In this document: piece by piece, positions 6,429-37,682 of the stretch
How positions within the stretch are numbered: position 1 is the first letter of the stretch
Layout of the letters: every line of letters begins with the position of its first letter
Assembly (NCBI RefSeq): GCF_007747445.1
Contig: NZ_CP036425.1
Location: forward strand, 372,001-436,000
Reading direction: 5' to 3'
From: Poriferisphaera corsica
GTDB taxonomy: Bacteria; Planctomycetota; Phycisphaerae; Phycisphaerales; Phycisphaeraceae
Length of the DNA: 64,000 nt
Notes under the pieces: generated by a model
Told to the model about the DNA's origin: nothing
Database searches by the model: none
The model's input: only the letters and a program-made list of their open reading frames with translations
Program-made: the position numbers and the translations under genes

Positions 6429-6990
6429 ATGACTTGCGTCGATAATCAGTACCGTGTGTCAAAGAAAGCATTGAAGTCCCTCGCTCGCCTTGGTCGCTGC
6501 TCAATCGGCTTTAAAGTAGTCTTCAGAAGTCTGGAAGACTTGGTTTTGGGCACTAGTTTCTCGAAATCTGCCTTGTTGCGACAATGAATATTAAATGATT
6601 TTTGGATTGCAAGTATTTGCAAAAAAACAACTTACATATTCAGAGGTGGATATACTTTCATTTATGCAATTGACAATGAGGCAATCTACCTTAAATTGAA
6701 AGCAATAGTTGCTCTCTCGCTTTCGGAATTATCTGAACTGGTCTCATTGGCAATTTGCCTTATTGCTCGTGTTGTAAAAATGAAAACAAAATCAATTTGC
6801 TTCGGAATTGCCATCAAATCAAAACTCGCTCAGTAGTTTCTCATGTAGTCATGATTATTCGCCTAGCCTCATCTCTCTCTCGTCGGATTGATCATTTGTT
6901 CAGATCATTCATCGTATTACGGCGTGATAGACTCGATGTGTCTCATTGACAATTTTTCGAACACAAGGACGTACATCGGTAGCTAAAAAA
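6429..6990. other. Non-coding stretch with weak hairpin
   Basis: About 560 bp between the GH1 gene and a pseudopilin gene. AGTCTTC (6518-6524) and GAAGACT (6534-6540) form a 7-bp stem followed by TGGTTTT, a possible weak terminator for the GH1 gene. A 64-codon open frame at 6755-6949 has no recognisable features. The rest must hold the pseudopilin promoter. Confidence 0.4.
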
Positions 6991-7821
6991 ATGTTCAGCA
7001 ATCTATACCCAAGACAACCATTCGATCGGGCCTTTACATTGATAGAATTGCTTGTAGTCATCTCAATCATAGCGTTACTTATTGGAATACTTCTTCCCGC
7101 ATTAAGCGCAGCTCGCCGAACCGCTCGCATGGTGACTTGTAATACGAATCTCAGACAAATCTCGCTGGGCTATGTCATGTACGCAAATGACAACAAAACC
7201 TTTTATCCCGCAAGCACAGAGAACCTTACTTCATACACAAAAGATTTTGCAAACTTTCCTCTCGAAAGATATCTAAAAGGCTACATCATGAATGCTCAAG
7301 GTTCAGGCTGGAGTTCATCAACCGATTTCGCTGGCGGAGTTTTTCTTTGCCCCTCGTCAGGCATGTATCTCGAAACTGGCGCCTCTCAACCCGGCTATCG
7401 CCTCGAATCAGGTGAGCATCCCGCAGAGGGTCGCATACATAACGCGTACTACGGCCTCTTCCATCATTGGGTTCGCACACGTACCTCAGGCCCCGCCGGT
7501 CGTTACAAACCTAATGTCTGGCGTGAACCATATTTCTCGAAACCACACGGCGTACCCATCCAATACTGTTCCACTGCAAACGCTCAACGACCCAATTCTA
7601 TCTCCAGTACCTCATGGCATGGACCTGACGGGAAATACGGCAGACCAACAGCTTTTATCGACGGTCATACCGCCACACTCACACAAACAAAATACACCGA
7701 ATATTCTCAAACCATCATGAACGCAAATGCGATGTATCAAGGAGAATCCGCTCACGCATGGGTCGGCAAAGATGATGGCACGCTTCAACATGCCCGTGAC
7801 TACGAACTCGACGAATTTTAA
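6991..7821 (+). CDS. Type II secretion-like pseudopilin (prepilin N-methylation motif, DGH C-terminal motif)
   Basis: Planctomycete-style pseudopilin of about 276 residues. Near the N-terminus [19 protein letters not shown] is a class III prepilin signal with the invariant Glu five residues after the cut, followed by one hydrophobic helix. The residue before the cleavage site is Ala rather than the usual Gly. The C-terminal region carries [19 protein letters not shown], the H-X9-DG-like signature of this large family. The frame opens earlier with TTG at 6946, but ATG 6991 puts the signal at the normal distance. Presumed membrane-anchored; the function of these paralogues is unknown. A PEP-CTERM gene follows after 60 bp. 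Confidence 0.85.
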
Positions 7822-7881
7822 TAGCTATTACATCTAACGAATCATGTTATCTCGCAGCACAAATCATATGGAGGATGAAAT

Positions 7882-8556
7882 ATGAACAACAGTACACTGC
7901 GATTCGCCTTAGCAATCTATCTCTTGGCGTTCGCCACCGCTTATTCCACAAACGCCGCGATGCTCGAATTGATCCGCCCAGTTGCCTTGGGTACACACGG
8001 CTTCGTCCGAACATCGAACATGTTCGACATTGATGGCCTCGCCTACACCCCCGGTGTAGCTGGCAACCTTAACGATCCTTTTAATGTCGTCGATCCCGCA
8101 GCCCACCAAGGTTGGGGTTTTTCGGAAGACAACACACGTTTTTCATGGCTTGATTTCGGCGAAGATTGGGCCTCAATCAAAATCGCGCAAGTCTGGTCTT
8201 TATACCGACCCTTCTCTGCAACACAAGCGAACGGCATTGGCCTCTCATCTATGTGGTGGGACGATGATAACGACTCGACCAAAGATCCAACCGACGCTGA
8301 TGTAACTGAATTCGTATTTGGTAGCGCCGATCTAACTTCGAACGTGAATTCTCAAACCTGGCTGGCTGACATGACGACAACCGCAGGCAACGAAATATCG
8401 CTCGGGGGTAGATATCTGCTTATTCAAGGGCAACCCGGATTTCACGGACGTATTAATGAGATCGCTTTCGTTGGCTACGCCGATATCCCCGAGCCCGCTT
8501 CACTCTCATTGCTTCTAATTGGACTCACGTTACTTGCGCACAAACGAAAGCAATAG
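7882..8556 (+). CDS. PEP-CTERM sorting domain protein, unknown function
   Basis: 224 residues: signal peptide (cut near STNA-AML, residue ~25), an extracellular body without a recognised family but with acidic DDDNDSTKD, and a C-terminal sorting tail IPEPASLSLLLIGL followed by AHKRKQ. The tail is presumed to be processed by an exosortase so that the protein is retained at the surface. A good ribosome-binding site (GGAGG, 7871-7875) precedes the ATG. It forms a pair with the pseudopilin just upstream, an association that recurs in this window. Confidence 0.85.
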   Translation: MNNSTLRFALAIYLLAFATAYSTNAAMLELIRPVALGTHGFVRTSNMFDIDGLAYTPGVAGNLNDPFNVVDPAAHQGWGFSEDNTRFSWLDFGEDWASIKIAQVWSLYRPFSATQANGIGLSSMWWDDDNDSTKDPTDADVTEFVFGSADLTSNVNSQTWLADMTTTAGNEISLGGRYLLIQGQPGFHGRINEIAFVGYADIPEPASLSLLLIGLTLLAHKRKQ

Positions 8557-8601
8557 ACCTTCATCATAACTTTTGCCTCATTAACATGATGTAAAAGTTT
8601 T

Positions 8602-8620
8602 ATCTATCGCAAAGATAGAT
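8602..8620. other. Small hairpin between genes
   Basis: ATCTATC (602-608 of this kilobase) and GATAGAT (614-620) form a 7-bp stem with a GCAAA loop, about 45 bp after the PEP-CTERM stop. It lacks a T tract, so a terminator is not assured; it may be an mRNA 3' structure. Confidence 0.3.
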
Positions 8621-8710
8621 TGTCGTGATTCAATCTCCCACCTTCGCATCTTCAGCATGCATTGATTGAATCCTAACTATATGGTTGATACTTGTTACTA
8701 GAGATTGGTT

Positions 8711-28398: not shown

Positions 28399-28710
28399 AT
28401 TGGTGTCTCATTTAGAGAGAGGTAGTTTATCGCAAATTTTGAGTGATGCAAGTTGGTGAATCAGAGAAACAGGCTGTGAAGAATGTGTGGAAGACTAAAG
28501 TGCTAGGGGTGTTGATATCAGGATTTATTTGCTCTAAATGCAATAAATATATGCGCTTATGATTTGTTTTTGATTTTATGGGTGAGTATAAATTGGCTTT
28601 ACTGGGTGGAATGGGATGAAATTGATTGGGGATAATTGACGGCCAGAATTTGAGTCGGTATGTTGAGTTGAACTTATTGGTTAGCAATTTTTTTGTTTAG
28701 ATAAAGTTGC
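28399..28710. other. AT-rich gap between tRNA and riboswitch
   Basis: About 310 bp with no convincing coding frame. It should hold the promoters of the tRNA (reading left) and of the riboswitch transcript (reading right). Nothing more specific is visible. Confidence 0.4.
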
Positions 28711-28714
28711 TTGA

Positions 28715-28930
28715 AAAGAGAAGTGAGGTGAATCCTTCCCCGCTGTTAGGCAGTGGGTTAATGGGATGAATCCTTCGCGGACGCGCCGCCGTGATGAGCT
28801 GGTGAGATGACTGAGGTTGTCAGCCACTGAGTCAAACGCGATAGTCACTGATTGATCTGCAATGGATCGATTGGGAAGGCAAGCGATTGATGAAGTAGAA
28901 GCTCTAAGCCGGAAGACCTGCCAATGGGTG
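28715..28930 (+). ncRNA. Cobalamin riboswitch aptamer 1
   Basis: Conserved parts appear in the right order: GGTGAATCC near the start, GAATCC followed by GCGGACGCGCCGCCGTGA (28768-28794) for the P4-P6 core and L5, GCCACTG (28823-28829), GGGAAGG (28873-28879), and the B12 box AGCCGGAAGACCTGCC (28907-28922). The core is nearly identical to the second copy at 31820-32025. It lies 200 bp upstream of a PEP-CTERM gene on the same strand and should lower expression when adenosyl- or methylcobalamin is abundant. Confidence 0.92.
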
Positions 28931-29082
28931 CCTATTGTGGATCCTCGCGAATCGGGATCGGAAGGCGCAAGAGTACAGTACTGATCAATAATCGGCTGTA
29001 CGTCATCCCTGCATGGCTTGTCCTTTCTAGATTTGTGCAAATGCACTCCCCGCGATGATCAAGATTATTTTATTGGGCAGGG

Positions 29083-29125: not shown

Positions 29126-29908
29126 ATGTTCATGATGAAGAGTCGTATATCGCTTTTGGCTATCGTATGCGCTAATGCGGGTTTTATTGGTTTGATTGAT
29201 TGTACTAATGCAGCACCGATTACTGCAGATCGTGTTGTGAACCATGAAACTGGAGAACAATTTTCGGGATGGAGTGTGCCTTGGGATCCGTATTACACAA
29301 ACCCCGAAGTTGTTTTGGGTGAGATGGATCGAACTACGAGTTTTTGGGGTCGTGAATACTTAGTTACAGAAGGAAATCCGTTATTTAAGACCTCGCAAAT
29401 AACATTTCTAGGACCTAACGCAGAGATAGTTCTTGAGATGAGTGAGGATGTTGTAAGTGACCCGGTTGGGCCAGAACTTGGTGTTTATACTGCGAACGGT
29501 ATGAATGACAGTGCACAAAATGCGGTTGTGAGTGTTAGTGCAAACGGTACAGATTGGTTTGTGGTTACAGATGTTGTAGGGAATCCTGGTGTGAAATTAG
29601 ATGCAGGTTTCAATGCTTTTAAACAGAAGCCCGGTGGAAAGGAATTGGATAATTTTGGCAATGGAAGGGCGGCAGATTATAACGAGATTGTCTTTGATGA
29701 TCCTGAGGAGGGAGAGGGAAATTGGTATGACATTAGTGGTACAGGGCTTGAGTATATTCGATATGTGAAGATTGAAGTGCCTTCGTTTAATTCAGTGCAA
29801 TCACCCGTTCGTCTTGCAGGTGTCTATGCGGTTCCAGAGCCGATGAGCTTGTTGTTAATCGGGGTGGGTGGATTAATGATTGCAATGCGACGGCGTCAAT
29901 ATAAATAA
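29126..29908 (+). CDS. PEP-CTERM surface protein under cobalamin riboswitch
   Basis: 260 residues. Signal peptide (hydrophobic core ISLLAIVCANAGFIGLI). ATG 29126 is very close to the AGG at 29123-29125, so translation may really begin at 29132 or 29135. The body has ITFLGPNAEIVLEMSEDVV and VVSVSANGTDWFVVTD, a beta-sandwich pattern also found in the proteins encoded at 33338 and 62556. The tail VPEPMSLLLIGVGGLMIAM-RRRQYK is a PEP-CTERM signal. First gene behind riboswitch 1, so inferred to act in uptake or binding of cobalamin at the cell surface. Confidence 0.85.
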   Translation: MFMMKSRISLLAIVCANAGFIGLIDCTNAAPITADRVVNHETGEQFSGWSVPWDPYYTNPEVVLGEMDRTTSFWGREYLVTEGNPLFKTSQITFLGPNAEIVLEMSEDVVSDPVGPELGVYTANGMNDSAQNAVVSVSANGTDWFVVTDVVGNPGVKLDAGFNAFKQKPGGKELDNFGNGRAADYNEIVFDDPEEGEGNWYDISGTGLEYIRYVKIEVPSFNSVQSPVRLAGVYAVPEPMSLLLIGVGGLMIAMRRRQYK

Positions 29909-29990: not shown

Positions 29991-30737
29991 ATGATGAGAG
30001 ATGGTAAAACAATTCAATTATTTGTTAGTGCTTTACTAGTCACGTTGTGGACAACTCAAGCGTATGCGGGTATTGGTAGTTTCGATGATATTAGTTTTTG
30101 GGTTGGTGAGGGTGCTAATGAAGCAGCTTTAGTGATTGAGTGGGGAGACGATAAGGGAAAAGGAATGGTCTGGGGATATCGATGGGACGGTGAGCAAACA
30201 GGGGAGGACATGGTGGAAGCGATAGCTGCTGCGGACCCATCTTTGTACTACATGAGTAAGCGTGGAACGCAGTATGGATCGAATCTAGCTGGATTTGGCT
30301 ACGATATTGATCAAGATGGAGAATTGGGTGTTATTGGTCGAGTTGGTTTGGATTTTGCGGGTCTCGTGAGTAAGCCGGACGAAAGTGGTTTTATTGATGT
30401 TGTTGATGCGTATACAGATTCGGATATGTGGGAGGCATTAGATGCAGACGATCATCATGCATCAGGTTGGTACACAGGCTATTGGTCGTACTGGACTTCG
30501 TATGAGACGAATCCATTTGATGGAGGTGAATGGAATTATTCACCATTAGGGATGAGTTCCTTGGAGTTGGAGAATGGTGGCTGGCAGGGTTGGAGCTACA
30601 GTAATTTCTCAGAGGTCGGTTCGGGGCAAGCTCCTTCAGATGTGATTTCGGCTCCTGTGTTAGCGGTTCCTGAGCCTGCTTCGATTTCACTGTTAGGTTT
30701 GGGTTGCGTACTTGTTTTATGCCGGCGCAATAAATAG
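29991..30737 (+). CDS. PEP-CTERM surface protein, cobalamin-riboswitch cluster
   Basis: 248 residues. Signal peptide ends at AYA-GIG (residue ~26). The mature part begins IGSFDDISFWVGEGANEAALVIEWGD and continues with KGMVWGYRWDGEQTGEDMVE; this wording is shared, as far as I recall, with uncharacterised surface proteins of other phyla. It ends in VPEPASISLLGLGCVLVLC-RRNK, a PEP-CTERM tail. ATG 29991 and 29994 are both usable behind AAAGGA. Located 82 bp after the first gene. Role in B12 handling is inferred from the riboswitch only. Confidence 0.83.
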   Translation: MMRDGKTIQLFVSALLVTLWTTQAYAGIGSFDDISFWVGEGANEAALVIEWGDDKGKGMVWGYRWDGEQTGEDMVEAIAAADPSLYYMSKRGTQYGSNLAGFGYDIDQDGELGVIGRVGLDFAGLVSKPDESGFIDVVDAYTDSDMWEALDADDHHASGWYTGYWSYWTSYETNPFDGGEWNYSPLGMSSLELENGGWQGWSYSNFSEVGSGQAPSDVISAPVLAVPEPASISLLGLGCVLVLCRRNK

Positions 30738-30819: not shown

Positions 30820-31638
30820 ATGTACGTAAGCGAAAGAAAACGAAAAACCAGTGGGTTCACGTTGATTGAGTTGCTTGTAACTATCAGTATTATTTCGATT
30901 TTGATCGGTATTTTATTGCCTGCACTGTCTGCTGCACGTATTGCGGCCAGAGCGTCACTGTGCTTGTCCAATATTAGACAGCTTTCGATTGCAACATTGA
31001 ATTACACGAGTGCCAATGATGATTACATGCCACATTATCTACATCGCGAAACAATGGATACAACCAAATATTGGTTTGGTGAAGAGAATCAACGATACGT
31101 TGGGCCCGGATCTACTATGCGAAAGTTAGACCTTGCAGATGCTATTCTGGCAAGCTTTCTATCTGGTGCGATGGATGAAAGGATAGTGTGTCCAGATTTT
31201 CCGTACGATGCCGATGGTTATTTTGAGAAGTTTGATAAACAGGCCGCTAGTTATGGCATGAATGCATATGTTACAGGTGTTCAGTACACGCCGATAAGTT
31301 TGTGTAAGAAATTCAATTTGCCGATCACGCCATATTTTAGAATTACACAGTTTTTTCGTACGAGTGAAATTGTGATGTTTGCTGATGGGGTTCATTTAGA
31401 TGGTTTAGGTGACAAGCAGTTCAATGATGCGATATATCTAAAGGTGGAGAATCAATTCGGTGGGTTTGCACACTTTCGGCATCATGGGAAAACGAATGTG
31501 TCTTATCTTGATGGGCATGCGAGGGCAGAGGGGTTTGAGACGATTGAGCGGATGTATGAGGATATTGGCGGGGATGGTGCGGGGAATCTGACACATGGTG
31601 ATTATGGAATGGATACGCCATATGGCAGTTTGGAATGA
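30820..31638 (+). CDS. Pseudopilin with DGH motif, cobalamin-riboswitch cluster
   Basis: 272 residues. [20 protein letters not shown] after a short basic leader is a class III prepilin signal (cut after Gly12, Glu17 conserved). CSNIRQL-type segment [17 protein letters not shown] and the C-terminal [19 protein letters not shown] (H-X9-DG) place it in the planctomycete pseudopilin family. Last gene of the first riboswitch-led run. A role as a tip or carrier for the surface proteins encoded beside it is conceivable but untested. No obvious ribosome-binding site precedes the ATG. Confidence 0.85.
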
Positions 31639-31819
31639 TTGTTGATTTAGGTGTGAAATGGGGTGGCTTAGCTAGAGTGAGGTGTGTTGGGAGTCACAGT
31701 TGGGTGGAATTTGGGTTGTGATGGAGATACCGAATTGCATTGGGGAGCAGATCGGGTTACGTTGTATGGACTATCAGGTAAAGCAGCAAAGAATATTGAT
31801 TTGCTTTATGAAAATAGGG

Positions 31820-32025
31820 AAGTGAGGTGATTTGACCGTTACGGATTATGAAATTCGTGATGTGTTGAAGAATCCTCCGCGGACGCGCCGCCGTGATGAG
31901 CTGGCCAGATGAGATCTGGCTGATCATAAATCGCGTTAGTCACTGACTGATCTGCAACGGATTAGTTGGGAAGGCAAGCGATTATATGAAAGCTCTAAGC
32001 CGGAAGACCTGCCTGAGAGTGCTAT
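31820..32025 (+). ncRNA. Cobalamin riboswitch aptamer 2
   Basis: GGTGATTTG near the start, AATCC then GCGGACGCGCCGCCGTGA (31879-31896), a TCACTGACTGATCTGC stretch shared with copy 1, GGGAAGG (31968-31974) and the B12 box AGCCGGAAGACCTGCC (31998-32013). The stretches from GCGGACGC to ATGAGCTGG and from GCTCTAAGCC to CTGCC are identical in the two copies, while peripheral stems differ. It precedes the second run of PEP-CTERM genes. Confidence 0.92.
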
Positions 32026-32140
32026 GAGTTGTCCTCGCGTATTGGGACACCGCACGGAAATCTGCTATTACCTCCTTGCATCAGATTTATGTTCGGTTAT
32101 TTGCCTATACGAGGACTGAAGTTTTTTTACTTCGGAGGTC

Positions 32141-32172: not shown

Positions 32173-33267
32173 ATGCATAAGGCAGTTTTTCGTTTTTTAG
32201 GTCGTTCCGCTTTGGTTGCAACCATGATGATGGCAGGCCACGCCAATGTACAAGCAGGTTTGGCTGAGGGTTTAGAACTCACTTCGACGGGTTTCGGTGC
32301 TATTGGTCAATTCTCAGTAGGTGATGGCAAGATTCATGGTTGGGGAGCCTATAAAGATGAGAGTGGTCAAAATCACAAATCCTATCTGGCATATGATTTA
32401 ACGACTGGTGAAAAAACCATTTTTGGTGCTCCACCTAACGGTGTTAATTCGAATGGTTTTGGCGATCCGTTTGGTGTTTACGATTCGGTTAATAATCGTT
32501 TTCATTTCGCTGCTTATTCGGATGGATCACGTAGTGATGTTTATACATATGATGTCAGCTCGAGTGCATGGGTTACGCCGGGTAAAAATGGCGTTCAGAT
32601 GATCAATGCTTATGGAGCTGATGTTAGTAACGGCCAGTTGTATGTATCTGGATTGGCCGAGCCATGGAATGGTGGTACGGGGCAAGATAATTACATTTTT
32701 GCATTTGATCACAATGCGGGTGTTACTGATGTGGCGCGTCACGATACGCTTATCAAAACAGCGGGTAATTCAGCCTATGTAGCTGTCGCGTCGAATGGTG
32801 ATGTTTACTATGCAACTTATGATTTCAGTAATAGTAAGTTGTATAAGTGGACCGCTGATCAGGTTGCTTCGGTTACCAATGATCTTTACGCGGGTGAAGC
32901 AGATACTTATTTAGATGTTGAAGATGGTGAGATGCTGCTTTCGCTCCCAGGTGGTGGTAATGGTATTGCAGTTGATGATGCGGGGCATGTATTTTTCACG
33001 GCGAACTCATTCACTTCAGGCAGTGTTCTTGGCATGCTCGATGCTTCTGATCCTAAGGGGTATCGTGAGATCTATACAAAGACACCTGACGAAGGTTTTG
33101 CTTGGTTTGGCCCAATGGCTATTGAGGGCGATTTCCTCGCAGGTGATCCACTGATTGCTTCAAGTGTCGCGACTGGTGGTTTCTCGATGATTACTATGGT
33201 TCCAGAACCTACAAGCTTAGCGCTGCTTGGCTTGGGTGGTGTGATGTTGTTGTGTCGCCGCAAATAA
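32173..33267 (+). CDS. PEP-CTERM beta-propeller-like surface protein, candidate cobalamin binder
   Basis: 364 residues. Signal peptide ends near ANVQA-GLA (residue 28). The body shows blade-like repeats roughly every 50 residues: YLAYDLTTGE (71-80), VYTYDVSSSA (123-132), IFAFDHNAG (175-183), LYKWTADQ (223-230), each a beta-strand followed by a D-x-x-T/S/A turn, consistent with a beta-propeller. The tail VPEPTSLALLGLGGVMLLC-RRK is a PEP-CTERM signal. First gene behind riboswitch 2 with AGGGAGAG seven bases upstream. The layout recalls BtuG, the surface beta-propeller that captures B12 in Bacteroides, but homology cannot be proven by eye. Confidence 0.82.
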   Translation: MHKAVFRFLGRSALVATMMMAGHANVQAGLAEGLELTSTGFGAIGQFSVGDGKIHGWGAYKDESGQNHKSYLAYDLTTGEKTIFGAPPNGVNSNGFGDPFGVYDSVNNRFHFAAYSDGSRSDVYTYDVSSSAWVTPGKNGVQMINAYGADVSNGQLYVSGLAEPWNGGTGQDNYIFAFDHNAGVTDVARHDTLIKTAGNSAYVAVASNGDVYYATYDFSNSKLYKWTADQVASVTNDLYAGEADTYLDVEDGEMLLSLPGGGNGIAVDDAGHVFFTANSFTSGSVLGMLDASDPKGYREIYTKTPDEGFAWFGPMAIEGDFLAGDPLIASSVATGGFSMITMVPEPTSLALLGLGGVMLLCRRK

Positions 33268-33337: not shown

Positions 33338-34339
33338 ATGAAAATGCAAACGGCTTACTTGTTGGCTGCGGGGCTTTCGATGATCACCGCTTCATCTGTA
33401 TATGCAGGCCCTTATTCGCCAGGCAAGGGTGGTGCAGGCGAAGCAGGTTATATTGATGCGGGTATTCCGGGATTTGTGGGTGATGCTGGCGATGGTGTTC
33501 AGGCGACTGATAGTAATGGTAATTTCGTCAACCCAATTTTTAAGAGTTGGGCGACGGGTGTGCAACTATATAAGCCTTCGGATGAAGTGGGTACTTATGG
33601 CATGAATGGAATCGGAAGTCAGTTTGCTGATCCTTCACTTGCGACAGGTGCAGTTACCGGGAAGAACATGCATACGGTGTCGCTTGGTGACATGGATGCT
33701 GATGAGATTGCAAATCATCTAACGAATCCAACTGCAAATCCTGCAGGCACGCTTGTGTTGACCTTCGACAAGGCAATTACAAATGGTGAGGGCGCGGACT
33801 TTGCTGCTTTCGAGAATGGTTTTGTATCAAACTATAACGCTAGTGGTGGAGCAACGGCAGGTTTAATGTTTGCCGAGCTGGGTTTTGTCGAGGTTTCAAC
33901 GAATGGTATTGATTTTGCACAGTTCCCAAGCACATATCTGAACTATGAAAATGGTGACGGTTTGCCAAGCAACTATGCGTACCTTTCGCAGGACGTGAGC
34001 AATGTACACAATTTAGTTGGCAAGCATTCGAACGCGTATGGCGAGAGTTGGGGGACGCCGTTTGATTTGAGTGATCTTGAAAATCATGAACTTGTGTTGT
34101 CGGGTGTGGTTGATCTTGATGAGATTAATTATGTCAAAATTGTAGATATCGCTGGCAACGGCACTTTTCAGGATAGCGAAGGACGTGCTATTTATGACGC
34201 TTGGGTTACGTGGGGATCTGGCGGTTTGGATTTTGAAGCGTTGGGTGTCATTAACCAGGTGCCGGAACCCGGGGCCGCAACGATGTTGTTGGCATTGGGT
34301 TTGTTGGGATGTTTTTCAAACAGATCAAAGCGTGCATAA
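33338..34339 (+). CDS. PEP-CTERM surface protein of cobalamin cluster
   Basis: 333 residues, signal peptide to VYA-GPY (residue ~24). The central block runs VSLGDMDADEIANHL, GTLVLTFDKAITNGEGADFA, AFENGF, FAELGFVEVSTNGIDFAQFP, a pattern I associate with a widespread family of uncharacterised cell-surface proteins having a predicted beta-sandwich. YVKIVDIAGNGTFQDSEGRAI suggests a metal- or ligand-binding acidic loop. PEP-CTERM tail VPEPGAATMLLALGLLGCF-SNRSKRA. AGGAG lies seven bases before the ATG. Second gene after riboswitch 2. Confidence 0.85.
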   Translation: MKMQTAYLLAAGLSMITASSVYAGPYSPGKGGAGEAGYIDAGIPGFVGDAGDGVQATDSNGNFVNPIFKSWATGVQLYKPSDEVGTYGMNGIGSQFADPSLATGAVTGKNMHTVSLGDMDADEIANHLTNPTANPAGTLVLTFDKAITNGEGADFAAFENGFVSNYNASGGATAGLMFAELGFVEVSTNGIDFAQFPSTYLNYENGDGLPSNYAYLSQDVSNVHNLVGKHSNAYGESWGTPFDLSDLENHELVLSGVVDLDEINYVKIVDIAGNGTFQDSEGRAIYDAWVTWGSGGLDFEALGVINQVPEPGAATMLLALGLLGCFSNRSKRA

Positions 34340-34412
34340 ATAAGTAAAACTTCTTCGTGCAGCTTGAGAAGAGTTGGTACAAGCAAATTCATAAAAATGA
34401 GAGGGAAAATTG

Positions 34413-35192
34413 ATGAAGATCGCAATTGTTACAGCAACGATAATGATAACAACCGGAACGGTGGCGAATGCCAATACCGTTGTTGATTTTGATGGTTTGG
34501 CGTTGGCTAATAATGAGAGTTATTACAACGGTAGTGACGAAGCGGGCAGCTTTCAATCTGGCCCTGTAACGTTCTTTAATAATTACAACAGCGCATACGG
34601 TTCATGGGATGGCTTCGCGTACTCCAATATGAGTGATACGACGACTGCTGATTTTAGCAATCAGTACAGTGCGATTACGGGTCATGGGGCAGGTGCTGGT
34701 GATGATATTTATGCGGTTGCATATTACTCAACATATGCGTCAATGAAGCCAACTTTTAGCTTAGATGAAGCGACTACCGTATCGGGTCTGCAGATTACTA
34801 ATGCAACATATACGGCGTTATCGATGAAGAACGGTGATTCTTTTGCTAAAAAATTTGGTGGGGCTACAGGTAATGACGCAGATTGGTTGAAGGTTACTTT
34901 TACAGGCATTCTTTCAGGGCAATCTGTCGGTGACATCGATTTTTATCTAGCGGATTACCGCTTTGATAATCAATTGGATGATTATATCGTCGATAGTTGG
35001 GAGTGGGTTGACCTTTCTGCATTGGGTTTGGTAGACAAAATCGAAATCACGATGACATCTTCAGATGTTGGATCATTTGGTATCAATACGCCAACGTACT
35101 TTGCAATTGATAACGTTACGCTCGTGCCAGAGCCCGCGGGTGGGGTATTGCTTGGCATTTCTGGTCTGGCATTATTACGACGTCGTGAATAA
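34413..35192 (+). CDS. PEP-CTERM protein with DUF4465-like body, cobalamin cluster
   Basis: 259 residues from ATG 34413 (TTG 34410 is an alternative); GAGAGGGAAA precedes it. Signal peptide to ANA-NTV. The mature part has the DUF4465 pattern: VDFDGLALANNESYYNGSD, FNNYNSAYGSWDGFAYSNM, GLQITNATYTALSMKNGDSF, DWLKVTFTG, VGDIDFYLADYR, DYIVDSWEWVDLSALG. DUF4465 proteins occur in Bacteroidetes B12-transport loci, where to my recollection they bind cobalamin at the surface (BtuH-type). It ends in VPEPAGGVLLGISGLALL-RRRE, a PEP-CTERM tail. Confidence 0.83.
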   Translation: MKIAIVTATIMITTGTVANANTVVDFDGLALANNESYYNGSDEAGSFQSGPVTFFNNYNSAYGSWDGFAYSNMSDTTTADFSNQYSAITGHGAGAGDDIYAVAYYSTYASMKPTFSLDEATTVSGLQITNATYTALSMKNGDSFAKKFGGATGNDADWLKVTFTGILSGQSVGDIDFYLADYRFDNQLDDYIVDSWEWVDLSALGLVDKIEITMTSSDVGSFGINTPTYFAIDNVTLVPEPAGGVLLGISGLALLRRRE

Positions 35193-35269: not shown

Positions 35270-36100
35270 ATGCGAAAAGAAGCTCAACAAATAGGGTTTA
35301 CTTTGATTGAATTGCTGGTGGTTATCAGCATCATCGCTCTGCTTATTGGCATTTTGTTACCTGCATTAAGTTCAGCTAGGCGTACAGCGCTGACGATTGT
35401 TTGTAGTTCGAATATCAGACAGCTGGCGATTGCAAATACGAGTTACTCAGTCGACAACAAAGATTTCTATGTCCGTGCAGCCAATGTTGAGGATCCTTTT
35501 GTCTGGACAAACAAGGAGCGTTGGCATGGTAAACGCGATACCAATAATACCAGTGAGCCATTTGACTATAAACGCGGCGACTTAACGCCGTATTATGGCG
35601 AGACCGCTGAGGTGAAGGAATGCCCGCAGTTTATTAAAGAAGAGAACTATCAACCGGGCTTTGAGAATAGTTGTGGTGGTTACGGCTACAACCAGCAATA
35701 TATCGGCGGGCGTAATGATCTGCACGGAATTGGCACGTTTGCTGCTAGCCAGAGTGCTCGTTCGGCTGATGTTAGAAACCCAGCGCAAACCGTTATGTTT
35801 ACTGATGCTGGATACGTGATTGACGATAACAAGGATCTGTTTTCGGAATATTCATTCTGTGAACCACCGTTTTGGCAACTAAATCCTGGTCCGCCTAGCA
35901 CGATGCGCCCAAATCCGACAATAAATTTTAGGCATAGTGGTACGACAAATGTTGCATGGGTAGATGGGCATGTTGATCGGCAACAGATTGAATTTAGCGT
36001 TAGCTATCAAACACATAGTGTTGTTACTGGTGACGAAGCTTTGGAGCTGGGATTTGGCTGGTTTGGCCCTCAATCGAATGAACTGTTTGACTTGAACTAA
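35270..36100 (+). CDS. Pseudopilin with DGH motif, cobalamin cluster
   Basis: 276 residues. [20 protein letters not shown] (cut after Gly9, Glu14) is the prepilin signal and transmembrane helix. [19 protein letters not shown] and the C-terminal [18 protein letters not shown] (H-X9-DG) define the planctomycete pseudopilin family. It closes the run of PEP-CTERM genes behind riboswitch 2, mirroring the position of the pseudopilin in the first run. Function unknown. Confidence 0.87.
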
Positions 36101-36452: not shown

Positions 36453-37364
36453 TTAAGCCCGACGGCGTTGCCGTGTCGTAAGCAAAGGTACGAGAGTAGC
36501 AGCAAGTAATGCGATGCTGCCCGGCTCCGGGATAATGTTGTAGATCTGATCTCTGTAAACTGAAAGATCAGACCAAGCCGTCAGGTTGTTGTGGACAGCA
36601 GTATTATTCGGCTGCCCTTCTTCACCTAGTATAAAGTGAGCGAGCCCAGCTAGCACCCATTCATCGTCATTATTTTTGACAAAAATGGACGAGCCAGAAT
36701 CTTTGTTCGCTGCCTGTCCTGAGGGTTCAAGCACGCTGAACTGTGTGAAAAACAAATGTTGCAAATTCAACGGTACATCAGAGAGAGTCGGCGAATTGGT
36801 AACCTCAGTAGGTGACCACTTCTTTGCACGTTCTGTGGTGCTAACGTTGAATCCGTTTTCAATCACGCTACCAAATGCTAAATCTGGTGTTGCGCTATTC
36901 TGCGTATAGCCTGTGCCAATAAAGATACCGTCGGTACCTGAAGTCGGCGTCGTGTCTGCAATTTCTAATACCGGTAACGAGGCAATCGGATCAGTGACTG
37001 GGATATTCAGTTTGAATATATACAGATCCGTTAGCGTGCCATCAGGGTTAAGTAACTGCTGGCCGGTACCACCAAGAGCGTTGTACTGTGAACCGCCAAG
37101 CATGATTGAGCCTTTTCCGCCCACATGATTTGCAGTTAATGCCCAGCCATTGCCTAGATACACGCCAGTCGCATTATCAGAACTCATGGTTCCCATACGA
37201 CCAACATGAGCCCATCCCGGATCGTCAGCCGGTGCGGTTTCATTTAACGGTGCACTATCTCCAAATCCCCCTGAAATAATCACTGCAGATGCAGTGTAAG
37301 GTGCTGCCGCTACAAACGTAAGAACAGCTGCTAGGGATAGTTTTTTTACAAAATATTGAGTCAT
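36453..37364 (-). CDS. PEP-CTERM trypsin-like serine protease homologue
   Basis: 303 residues from ATG 37364, which follows a strong AAGGAGAGG site; an upstream Met at 37424 lacks one. Signal peptide to ASA-VII. A chymotrypsin-fold triad can be read: His80 in WALTANHV, Asp113 in LTDLYIFKL and Ser223 in KDSGSSIFV (usual GDSGS). The Gly before Asp is replaced by Lys. The tail IPEPGSIALLAATLVPLLT-TRQRRRA is a PEP-CTERM signal, so the enzyme would be retained at the surface. Transcribed toward the cobalamin cluster. Confidence 0.8.
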   Translation of the reverse strand: MTQYFVKKLSLAAVLTFVAAAPYTASAVIISGGFGDSAPLNETAPADDPGWAHVGRMGTMSSDNATGVYLGNGWALTANHVGGKGSIMLGGSQYNALGGTGQQLLNPDGTLTDLYIFKLNIPVTDPIASLPVLEIADTTPTSGTDGIFIGTGYTQNSATPDLAFGSVIENGFNVSTTERAKKWSPTEVTNSPTLSDVPLNLQHLFFTQFSVLEPSGQAANKDSGSSIFVKNNDDEWVLAGLAHFILGEEGQPNNTAVHNNLTAWSDLSVYRDQIYNIIPEPGSIALLAATLVPLLTTRQRRRA

Positions 37365-37682
37365 CGCCTCTCCTTCTACTCCTCGTGTCGAGCGTGAAAT
37401 GCTGCTATCTCGACAGATCTGCACGCTTAATATACCAGATTAATCGACTCGATCCGAGTACTATTTCAAAAATATAATACGGATCAGTGTTAGCGTGTTT
37501 TATCGGGTCATGTCTGTGTTTGTAGTTCGTTAATTGCACGTGAGGAATCATCAAAAAACACTAACAGCAGTGTATTGCCTCTGATAAACTGTTGTCTCGA
37601 AAATATTCGCAGGCTACCTCGAATTGATCTATGTAGGCATTGAATATTTCATTCACATCACAAACGGGACAAGGTTGATTTA
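37365..37682. other. Divergent intergenic region
   Basis: 318 bp between the divergent protease-like and GH42 genes. I see promoter-like AT-rich sequence but no defined operator, RNA or coding frame. Confidence 0.35.

Follow-up and report, generated by a model that had tools for sequence, protein, structure and literature searches.

Genes and Riboswitches of the Locus

The window analyzed here is a stretch of 64,000 nucleotides from the genome of Poriferisphaera corsica, which consists of one contig of 4,291,168 bases. It includes two adjoining operons, each with a cobalamin riboswitch in front of it, and these two riboswitches are the only matches to RF00174 in the genome. The open reading frame for the propeller protein is present as it had been described in a first-pass annotation of the DNA; it was placed there behind riboswitch 2, and the RF00174 match does end 142 nt before its start codon. 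Downstream of the propeller gene, this operon encodes a conserved surface protein designated G5, a DUF4465 protein and a type IV pilin-like protein, successive genes being 70 to 77 nt apart. The coordinates of all features are given in Table 1.

Table 1. Riboswitches and genes of the two operons (positions in the window)
Feature	Position	Strand	Evidence and remarks
Cobalamin riboswitch 1 (RF00174)	28661–28939	+	cmscan 58.5 bits, full model
PEP-CTERM protein, family without a name, behind riboswitch 1	29126–29908	+	NCBIfam 23.7 bits (cut-off 16); Pfam 20.2 bits, just below 20.7
PEP-CTERM protein, family without a name, behind riboswitch 1	29991–30737	+	Pfam 22.3 bits (cut-off 20.7)
Type IV pilin-like protein, first operon	30820–31638	+	N_methyl 34 bits (cut-off 21.2)
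Cobalamin riboswitch 2 (RF00174)	31759–32030	+	cmscan 59.0 bits (gathering score 31.5), full-length match
Predicted secreted β-propeller with PEP-CTERM tail	32173–33267	+	ATG start, 364 residues
G5, conserved PEP-CTERM surface protein	33338–34339	+	PEP-CTERM 22.8 bits
DUF4465 protein (BtuJ-type B12-binding family)	34410–35192	+	PF14717, E = 3.9e-55, 187.4 bits (cut-off 25)
Type IV pilin-like protein with C-terminal GWFGP..NELFDL motif	35270–36100	+	N_methyl 26.3 bits (cut-off 21.2)

The two PEP-CTERM proteins behind riboswitch 1 have no relatives in the PDB at E ≤ 0.05 (29126–29908) and E ≤ 0.1 (29991–30737), and they may be further surface proteins that handle corrinoids. No cobalt transporter or enzyme domain was recognized among the operon proteins with Pfam and NCBIfam. 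The RNA fold between riboswitch 2 and the start codon was uninformative (z = -1.36), and scans for promoters and terminators gave fewer sites than were obtained with shuffled sequences. A trypsin-like protein with a weak PEP-CTERM tail is encoded next to the riboswitch 2 operon on the minus strand (36453–37424; PF00089, 27.6 bits).

The propeller protein begins with a stretch that, by eye, reads as a signal peptide and ends in a PEP-CTERM tail that scores above the cut-offs of both Pfam (21.5 against 20.7 bits) and NCBIfam (24.6 against 16 bits). Its sole cysteine, residue 361, is inside this tail, and the protein has neither a lipobox cysteine nor a lipoprotein export signal. Secretion with a sorting tail, as proposed in the first-pass annotation, is supported by the tail scores. 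In its tail the protein resembles the surface proteins of PEP-CTERM/exosortase systems, and the genome has three exosortase matches. It is strongly acidic, with 38 Asp and Glu residues, 14 Lys and Arg residues and a pI of 4.2.

The DUF4465 protein encoded two genes downstream (34410) is assigned by PF14717 to the BtuJ/DUF4465 family and matches the PDB entries 9HMU (1.2e-28) and 9FCT (BtuJ1; 1.7e-24), both of which are structures with bound B12. The propeller itself does not belong to this family; it often occupies the place of DUF4465 in relative operons. According to PMC13398666, DUF4465 proteins bound B12 in six of six newly tested cases, including one from Mucisphaera calidilacus, and 40% of the members of one DUF4465 cluster adjoin PF16819 propeller proteins; the propeller of the window is not detected by the PF16819 model. 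The tail of the window DUF4465 protein is weak (NCBIfam 16.3 against 16 bits, and under the Pfam cut-off).

Predicted Fold and Comparison with BtuG

An AlphaFold2 model of residues 26–344, calculated from a seven-row alignment of the window sequence and six relatives, has a β-propeller structure with a pLDDT of 82.3 and a pTM of 0.86. The repeating units that the first-pass annotation had pointed out near residues 71, 123, 175 and 223 (YLAYDLTTG, VYTYDVSSS, IFAFDHNAG and LYKWTADQV) are present and coincide with strands 42–50, 96–102, 147–153 and 197–201 of the model, in which residue 1 corresponds to residue 26 of the protein. The periodicity in the single sequence is not significant, the best ungapped self-match at offsets of 40–60 being reached by 36 of 500 shuffles, and the assignment as a propeller is based on the predicted structure and the family instead of the repeat. 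A Foldseek comparison of the model with the PDB gave 472 matches at E ≤ 0.001; those listed, which judging by their titles are propellers or enzymes with propeller domains, have modest TM scores of 0.46–0.59 by query and up to 0.73 by target. The best VIA-align match was Pizza6-SFW (Z = 25.1, root mean square deviation 2.6, 242 aligned residues), and PknD was matched with a Z of 24.4; both are six-bladed propellers. The model and both structural comparisons therefore point to the fold that the annotation had proposed, and the propeller is probably six-bladed, the number of blades being deduced from the best structural matches. The closest folds are NHL-type six-bladed propellers (the PknD sensor domain and Pizza6), but these are only about 15–17% identical to the window protein and have unrelated functions, and the likeness in fold is uninformative with respect to the ligand. 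Propellers bind many different ligands. The conserved positions over 21 aligned members of the family are mostly structural glycines and aspartates, and no corrinoid pocket was identified.

The first-pass annotation had suggested that the protein is an analogue of BtuG, which belongs to PF16819 (DUF5074). No PF16819 match was obtained in 18 members of the propeller family at E ≤ 0.1 or in the window protein at E ≤ 1, and the 17 genomes that carry the propeller family gave only two weak PF16819 matches, under the cut-off and at other places. The family profile matched 40 PDB sequences, of which YncE was the best (E = 0.0026) and none was named as a BtuG2 chain; one relative (L078) matched the model of seven-bladed YncE weakly (24 bits, cut-off 400). 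BtuG2 is also missing from the 50 matches listed by Foldseek and VIA-align, an absence that is evidence neither way. Membership of the BtuG family is unsupported by Pfam, by the genome search and by the profile search of the PDB.

Like BtuG of Bacteroides (BtuG2, BT1954), the window propeller is predicted to be exported and is encoded under a cobalamin riboswitch in a multigene B12 locus (PMC6143338). BtuG2 is described as a seven-bladed propeller in which the face that binds corrinoids is negative (PMC10404256), and the overall acidity of the window protein is a parallel that carries little weight. In contrast to BtuG2, the best structural matches of the window propeller are six-bladed, the lipobox is missing and a PEP-CTERM tail is present; moreover, no sequence relation to BtuG is detectable, and no BtuB-type receptor was found in the genome. 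From the earlier proposal, the fold, the secretion and the B12 context are retained, whereas kinship with the BtuG family is not supported, in view of the missing PF16819 match, the six-bladed matches, the lack of a lipobox and the failure to find a TonB plug. It appears likely that the protein works like BtuG, and "analogue" is the right word for it.

Propeller Family and Its Operon Plan

A plain search for relatives gave matches in 35 of 151 genomes, but most of these are confined to the C-terminal part and the tail; besides the protein of the window, the propeller is covered in one match only (G081). This relative is 46% identical over residues 31–361 and is encoded behind a cobalamin riboswitch, upstream of which its contig (also designated L034) encodes an ABC ATPase and a flavodoxin. 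With a two-sequence profile, the phylum yielded three matches in 392, namely the window protein and two weak ones, L053 with a riboswitch and L054 without; no relatives were found in the viral contigs searched. An eight-row propeller profile was run on 347 genomes of the class and gave matches in 37 of them, and 36 of the 37 matches other than the window protein were fetched with their flanks (G287 was left out). A cobalamin riboswitch is present upstream on the same strand in 17 of these 36 loci, 14 of the first 20 by Rfam and three of the other 16 by a riboswitch model built in the course of the analysis, and in 13 of the 15 best matches (E ≤ 1.2e-6). Control PEP-CTERM loci, which match in the C-terminal part only, gave no riboswitch in 20 cases by Rfam and none in 28 by the newly built model. 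The enrichment (17/36 against 0/28) has a Fisher p of 7e-6, to be read with the proviso that the control loci reach only ~1.5 kb beyond each end of the match and the propeller loci had longer flanks, so that an upstream riboswitch of a long gene could fall outside the control.

In the 14 Rfam-positive loci, however, the riboswitch is at most 461 nt ahead of the open reading frame as called and at the other extreme lies 76 nt inside it. The thresholds used detect no riboswitch in the remaining 19 loci, which are mostly weaker matches and of which several may be unrelated propellers. In two (L077 and L117) the sequence ahead of the propeller frame is ~350 and ~150 nt long, and a riboswitch may be cut off; another (L086) has a stretch resembling a B12 box, is matched weakly by the model (13.2 bits, E = 0.087) and was left uncounted. 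The link of the propeller with B12 is strong and family-wide; with riboswitches at 17 of 36 relatives and a DUF4465 neighbor, it is far stronger than the annotation had recognized. In another part of the phylum, a secreted propeller of 446 residues is encoded behind a cobalamin riboswitch in L053 (6948–8741), without a match to G5 or the pilin.

The arrangement of the operon recurs. All 14 Rfam-positive propeller loci have the order riboswitch, propeller, G5, with the propeller as the first recognized gene; the pilin-like gene is next in 11, and the other three meet the end of the contig. The three loci found with the newly built riboswitch model have the propeller, G5 and the pilin as well. 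None of the 14 contains a DUF4465 match. Iterated profiles over 39 sources detected the propeller in 30, G5 in 34, DUF4465 in eight and the pilin in 26, and a propeller directly behind the riboswitch is seen in just one of the eight DUF4465 sources, the window. G5 is better conserved than the propeller (72% identity), and a scan with it gave 17 loci encoding relatives in 16 records, labeled as Planctomycetota, Verrucomicrobia, Desulfobacterales/Deltaproteobacteria and a cyanobacterium. Eleven of the 17 have a cobalamin riboswitch; seven of these 11 encode DUF4465, and five have a propeller match somewhere in the locus, in some cases distant. Many relatives of the G5 operon thus carry DUF4465 in place of the propeller, which is therefore not indispensable; the two appear to substitute in part for each other at a single position of a common plan, and both are present in the window. 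A literature search found no report of this recurring B12-regulated operon.

Single open frames that combine the propeller with G5 (L034, 1996–4368; L120, 3192–5483) or G5 with the pilin (L080, 112–2088) may be real fusions or the result of assembly errors or indels. L039 (8862–13019) has the order riboswitch, DUF4465, G5, pilin, followed directly by a gene for a CobT-type phosphoribosyltransferase (PF02277); the frame at 6856–8703 of the same locus, suspected from its position to encode a receptor, gave no Pfam match at E ≤ 0.1.

No convincing relatives of G5 were found in the PDB by sequence. Its AlphaFold2 model (pLDDT 79.4, pTM 0.84) weakly resembles discoidin/CBM32 sandwiches, among them the CBM32 of AlyQ, with a best Z of 9.4. 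AlyQ has been noted as a modest structural neighbor of the B12-binding domain of BtuH, a likeness taken there as unrelated to B12 binding (PMC8941943), and for this reason the resemblance of G5 to AlyQ is treated as a lead only.

The C-terminal part of the pilin-like protein, with an H-X9-DG region and the GWFGP..NELFDL end, is common to 14 aligned loci. In the P. corsica genome, a profile of this part scores 138.8 bits on the pilin-like protein of the riboswitch 2 operon and 32.0 bits on the next best protein, which makes the former a dedicated copy rather than a common pilin-like gene. No other element of the system is as surprising as the part of this protein in the operon, and none has less support.

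Proposed Corrinoid Capture and Alternative Readings

The genome has four B12-binding domains, and CbiC, the only cobalamin synthesis gene looked for, was not found in it or in any of the 17 genomes that carry the propeller family, some of which are incomplete; the best reading is that the host is a B12-using bacterium without CbiC. One FecCD permease is encoded next to a Peripla_BP_2 protein, a pair consistent with a BtuC/BtuF-type importer, its substrate not being proven. A search of the genome, a single contig that is 95% complete, revealed no TonB Plug domain (PF07715), and plugs are present in nine of the 17 family-bearing genomes and were not found in eight, so the family is neither tied to TonB receptors nor excludes them. 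B12 has a mass of about 1.36 kDa. The limit quoted for porins is lower, at roughly 600 Da (PMC5394234), and TonB with its receptors was reported in no more than four of the planctomycete genomes studied in PMC3422733. Pilus-like fibers that bind dextran and an uncharacterized route of macromolecule uptake have been described (PMC5394234).

We consider it probable that the propeller is an exosortase-sorted surface protein that catches corrinoids as part of a B12 acquisition operon, together with DUF4465, G5 and the pilin-like protein; corrinoid binding by the propeller is an inferred element of this reading. The exported and probably six-bladed protein would be sorted by the exosortase system to the cell surface or the extracellular matrix, and because a cobalamin riboswitch precedes its gene, it would be made when B12 is scarce. 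Capture of corrinoids by the propeller and its partners would constitute the first step of acquisition. The captured B12 would cross the outer membrane by a route that is apparently independent of TonB receptors and would then be handed to the BtuF/BtuC-like ABC importer encoded elsewhere in the genome for entry into the cytoplasm. Propeller-type capture of B12 would thereby extend beyond BtuG, whose homologues were reported only in Bacteroidetes (PMC6143338), to an apparently separate family in Phycisphaerae and their relatives that has a different anchor.

A residual chance is left that the role of the propeller is structural or adhesive, within a surface coat regulated by B12. The corresponding alternative, in which DUF4465 and G5 bind B12 and the propeller is a co-regulated structural or adhesive protein that does not, is doubtful. 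It is favored by the published B12 binding of the DUF4465 family (PMC13398666) and by the rarity with which propeller and DUF4465 occur side by side, which among the eight DUF4465 sources is seen only in the window. However, in all 14 Rfam-positive loci the propeller is the first recognized gene and DUF4465 is missing, so there the propeller would have to take the binding role, and in L053 a riboswitch and a propeller occur without a match to G5 or the pilin. Less probable still is a true but diverged BtuG, in which the PEP-CTERM tail replaces the lipid anchor and B12 is passed to a BtuB-type receptor. The propeller fold, the riboswitch, the BtuJ-family neighbor and the weak YncE matches of L078 and of the family profile would agree with such an origin, but the 18 members without PF16819, with two weak matches at other places in the 17 genomes, the better match to six-bladed structures and the failure to find a plug domain in the window genome and in eight of the 17 argue against it. 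Cobalt uptake and B12-independent enzymes are further targets of cobalamin riboswitches, and this would allow for an operon with a different ligand, for example cobalt or a precursor of B12, or for one that makes a surface coat repressed by B12 and has no part in uptake; this is very improbable in view of the DUF4465 neighbor, the CobT-type gene directly behind the relative operon in L039 and the operon proteins, in which neither a cobalt transporter nor an enzyme domain was recognized.

A more far-reaching form of corrinoid capture would be a new kind of B12 uptake, in which the exosortase-sorted propeller, DUF4465 and G5 catch corrinoids at the surface and a fiber or pseudopilus of the dedicated, riboswitch-controlled type IV pilin-like protein carries them, or presents them for passage, across an outer membrane without a TonB-dependent B12 receptor; we regard this as unlikely. 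The recurrence of the pilin poses the question of how B12 passes the outer membrane without a TonB receptor, and a pilin-like gene that recurs in operons with B12 riboswitches provides a concrete handle on that question. A literature search found no paper that links PEP-CTERM/exosortase sorting to B12 acquisition. It brought up a single paper that names both PEP-CTERM and a cobalamin riboswitch, in which the PEP-CTERM genes adjoin c-di-GMP riboswitches (PMC12530212). In one of the relative loci (L036, 6906–9021), a DUF4465/G5 operon is preceded by a tandem array of three matches to the cobalamin riboswitch together with one c-di-GMP-I riboswitch.
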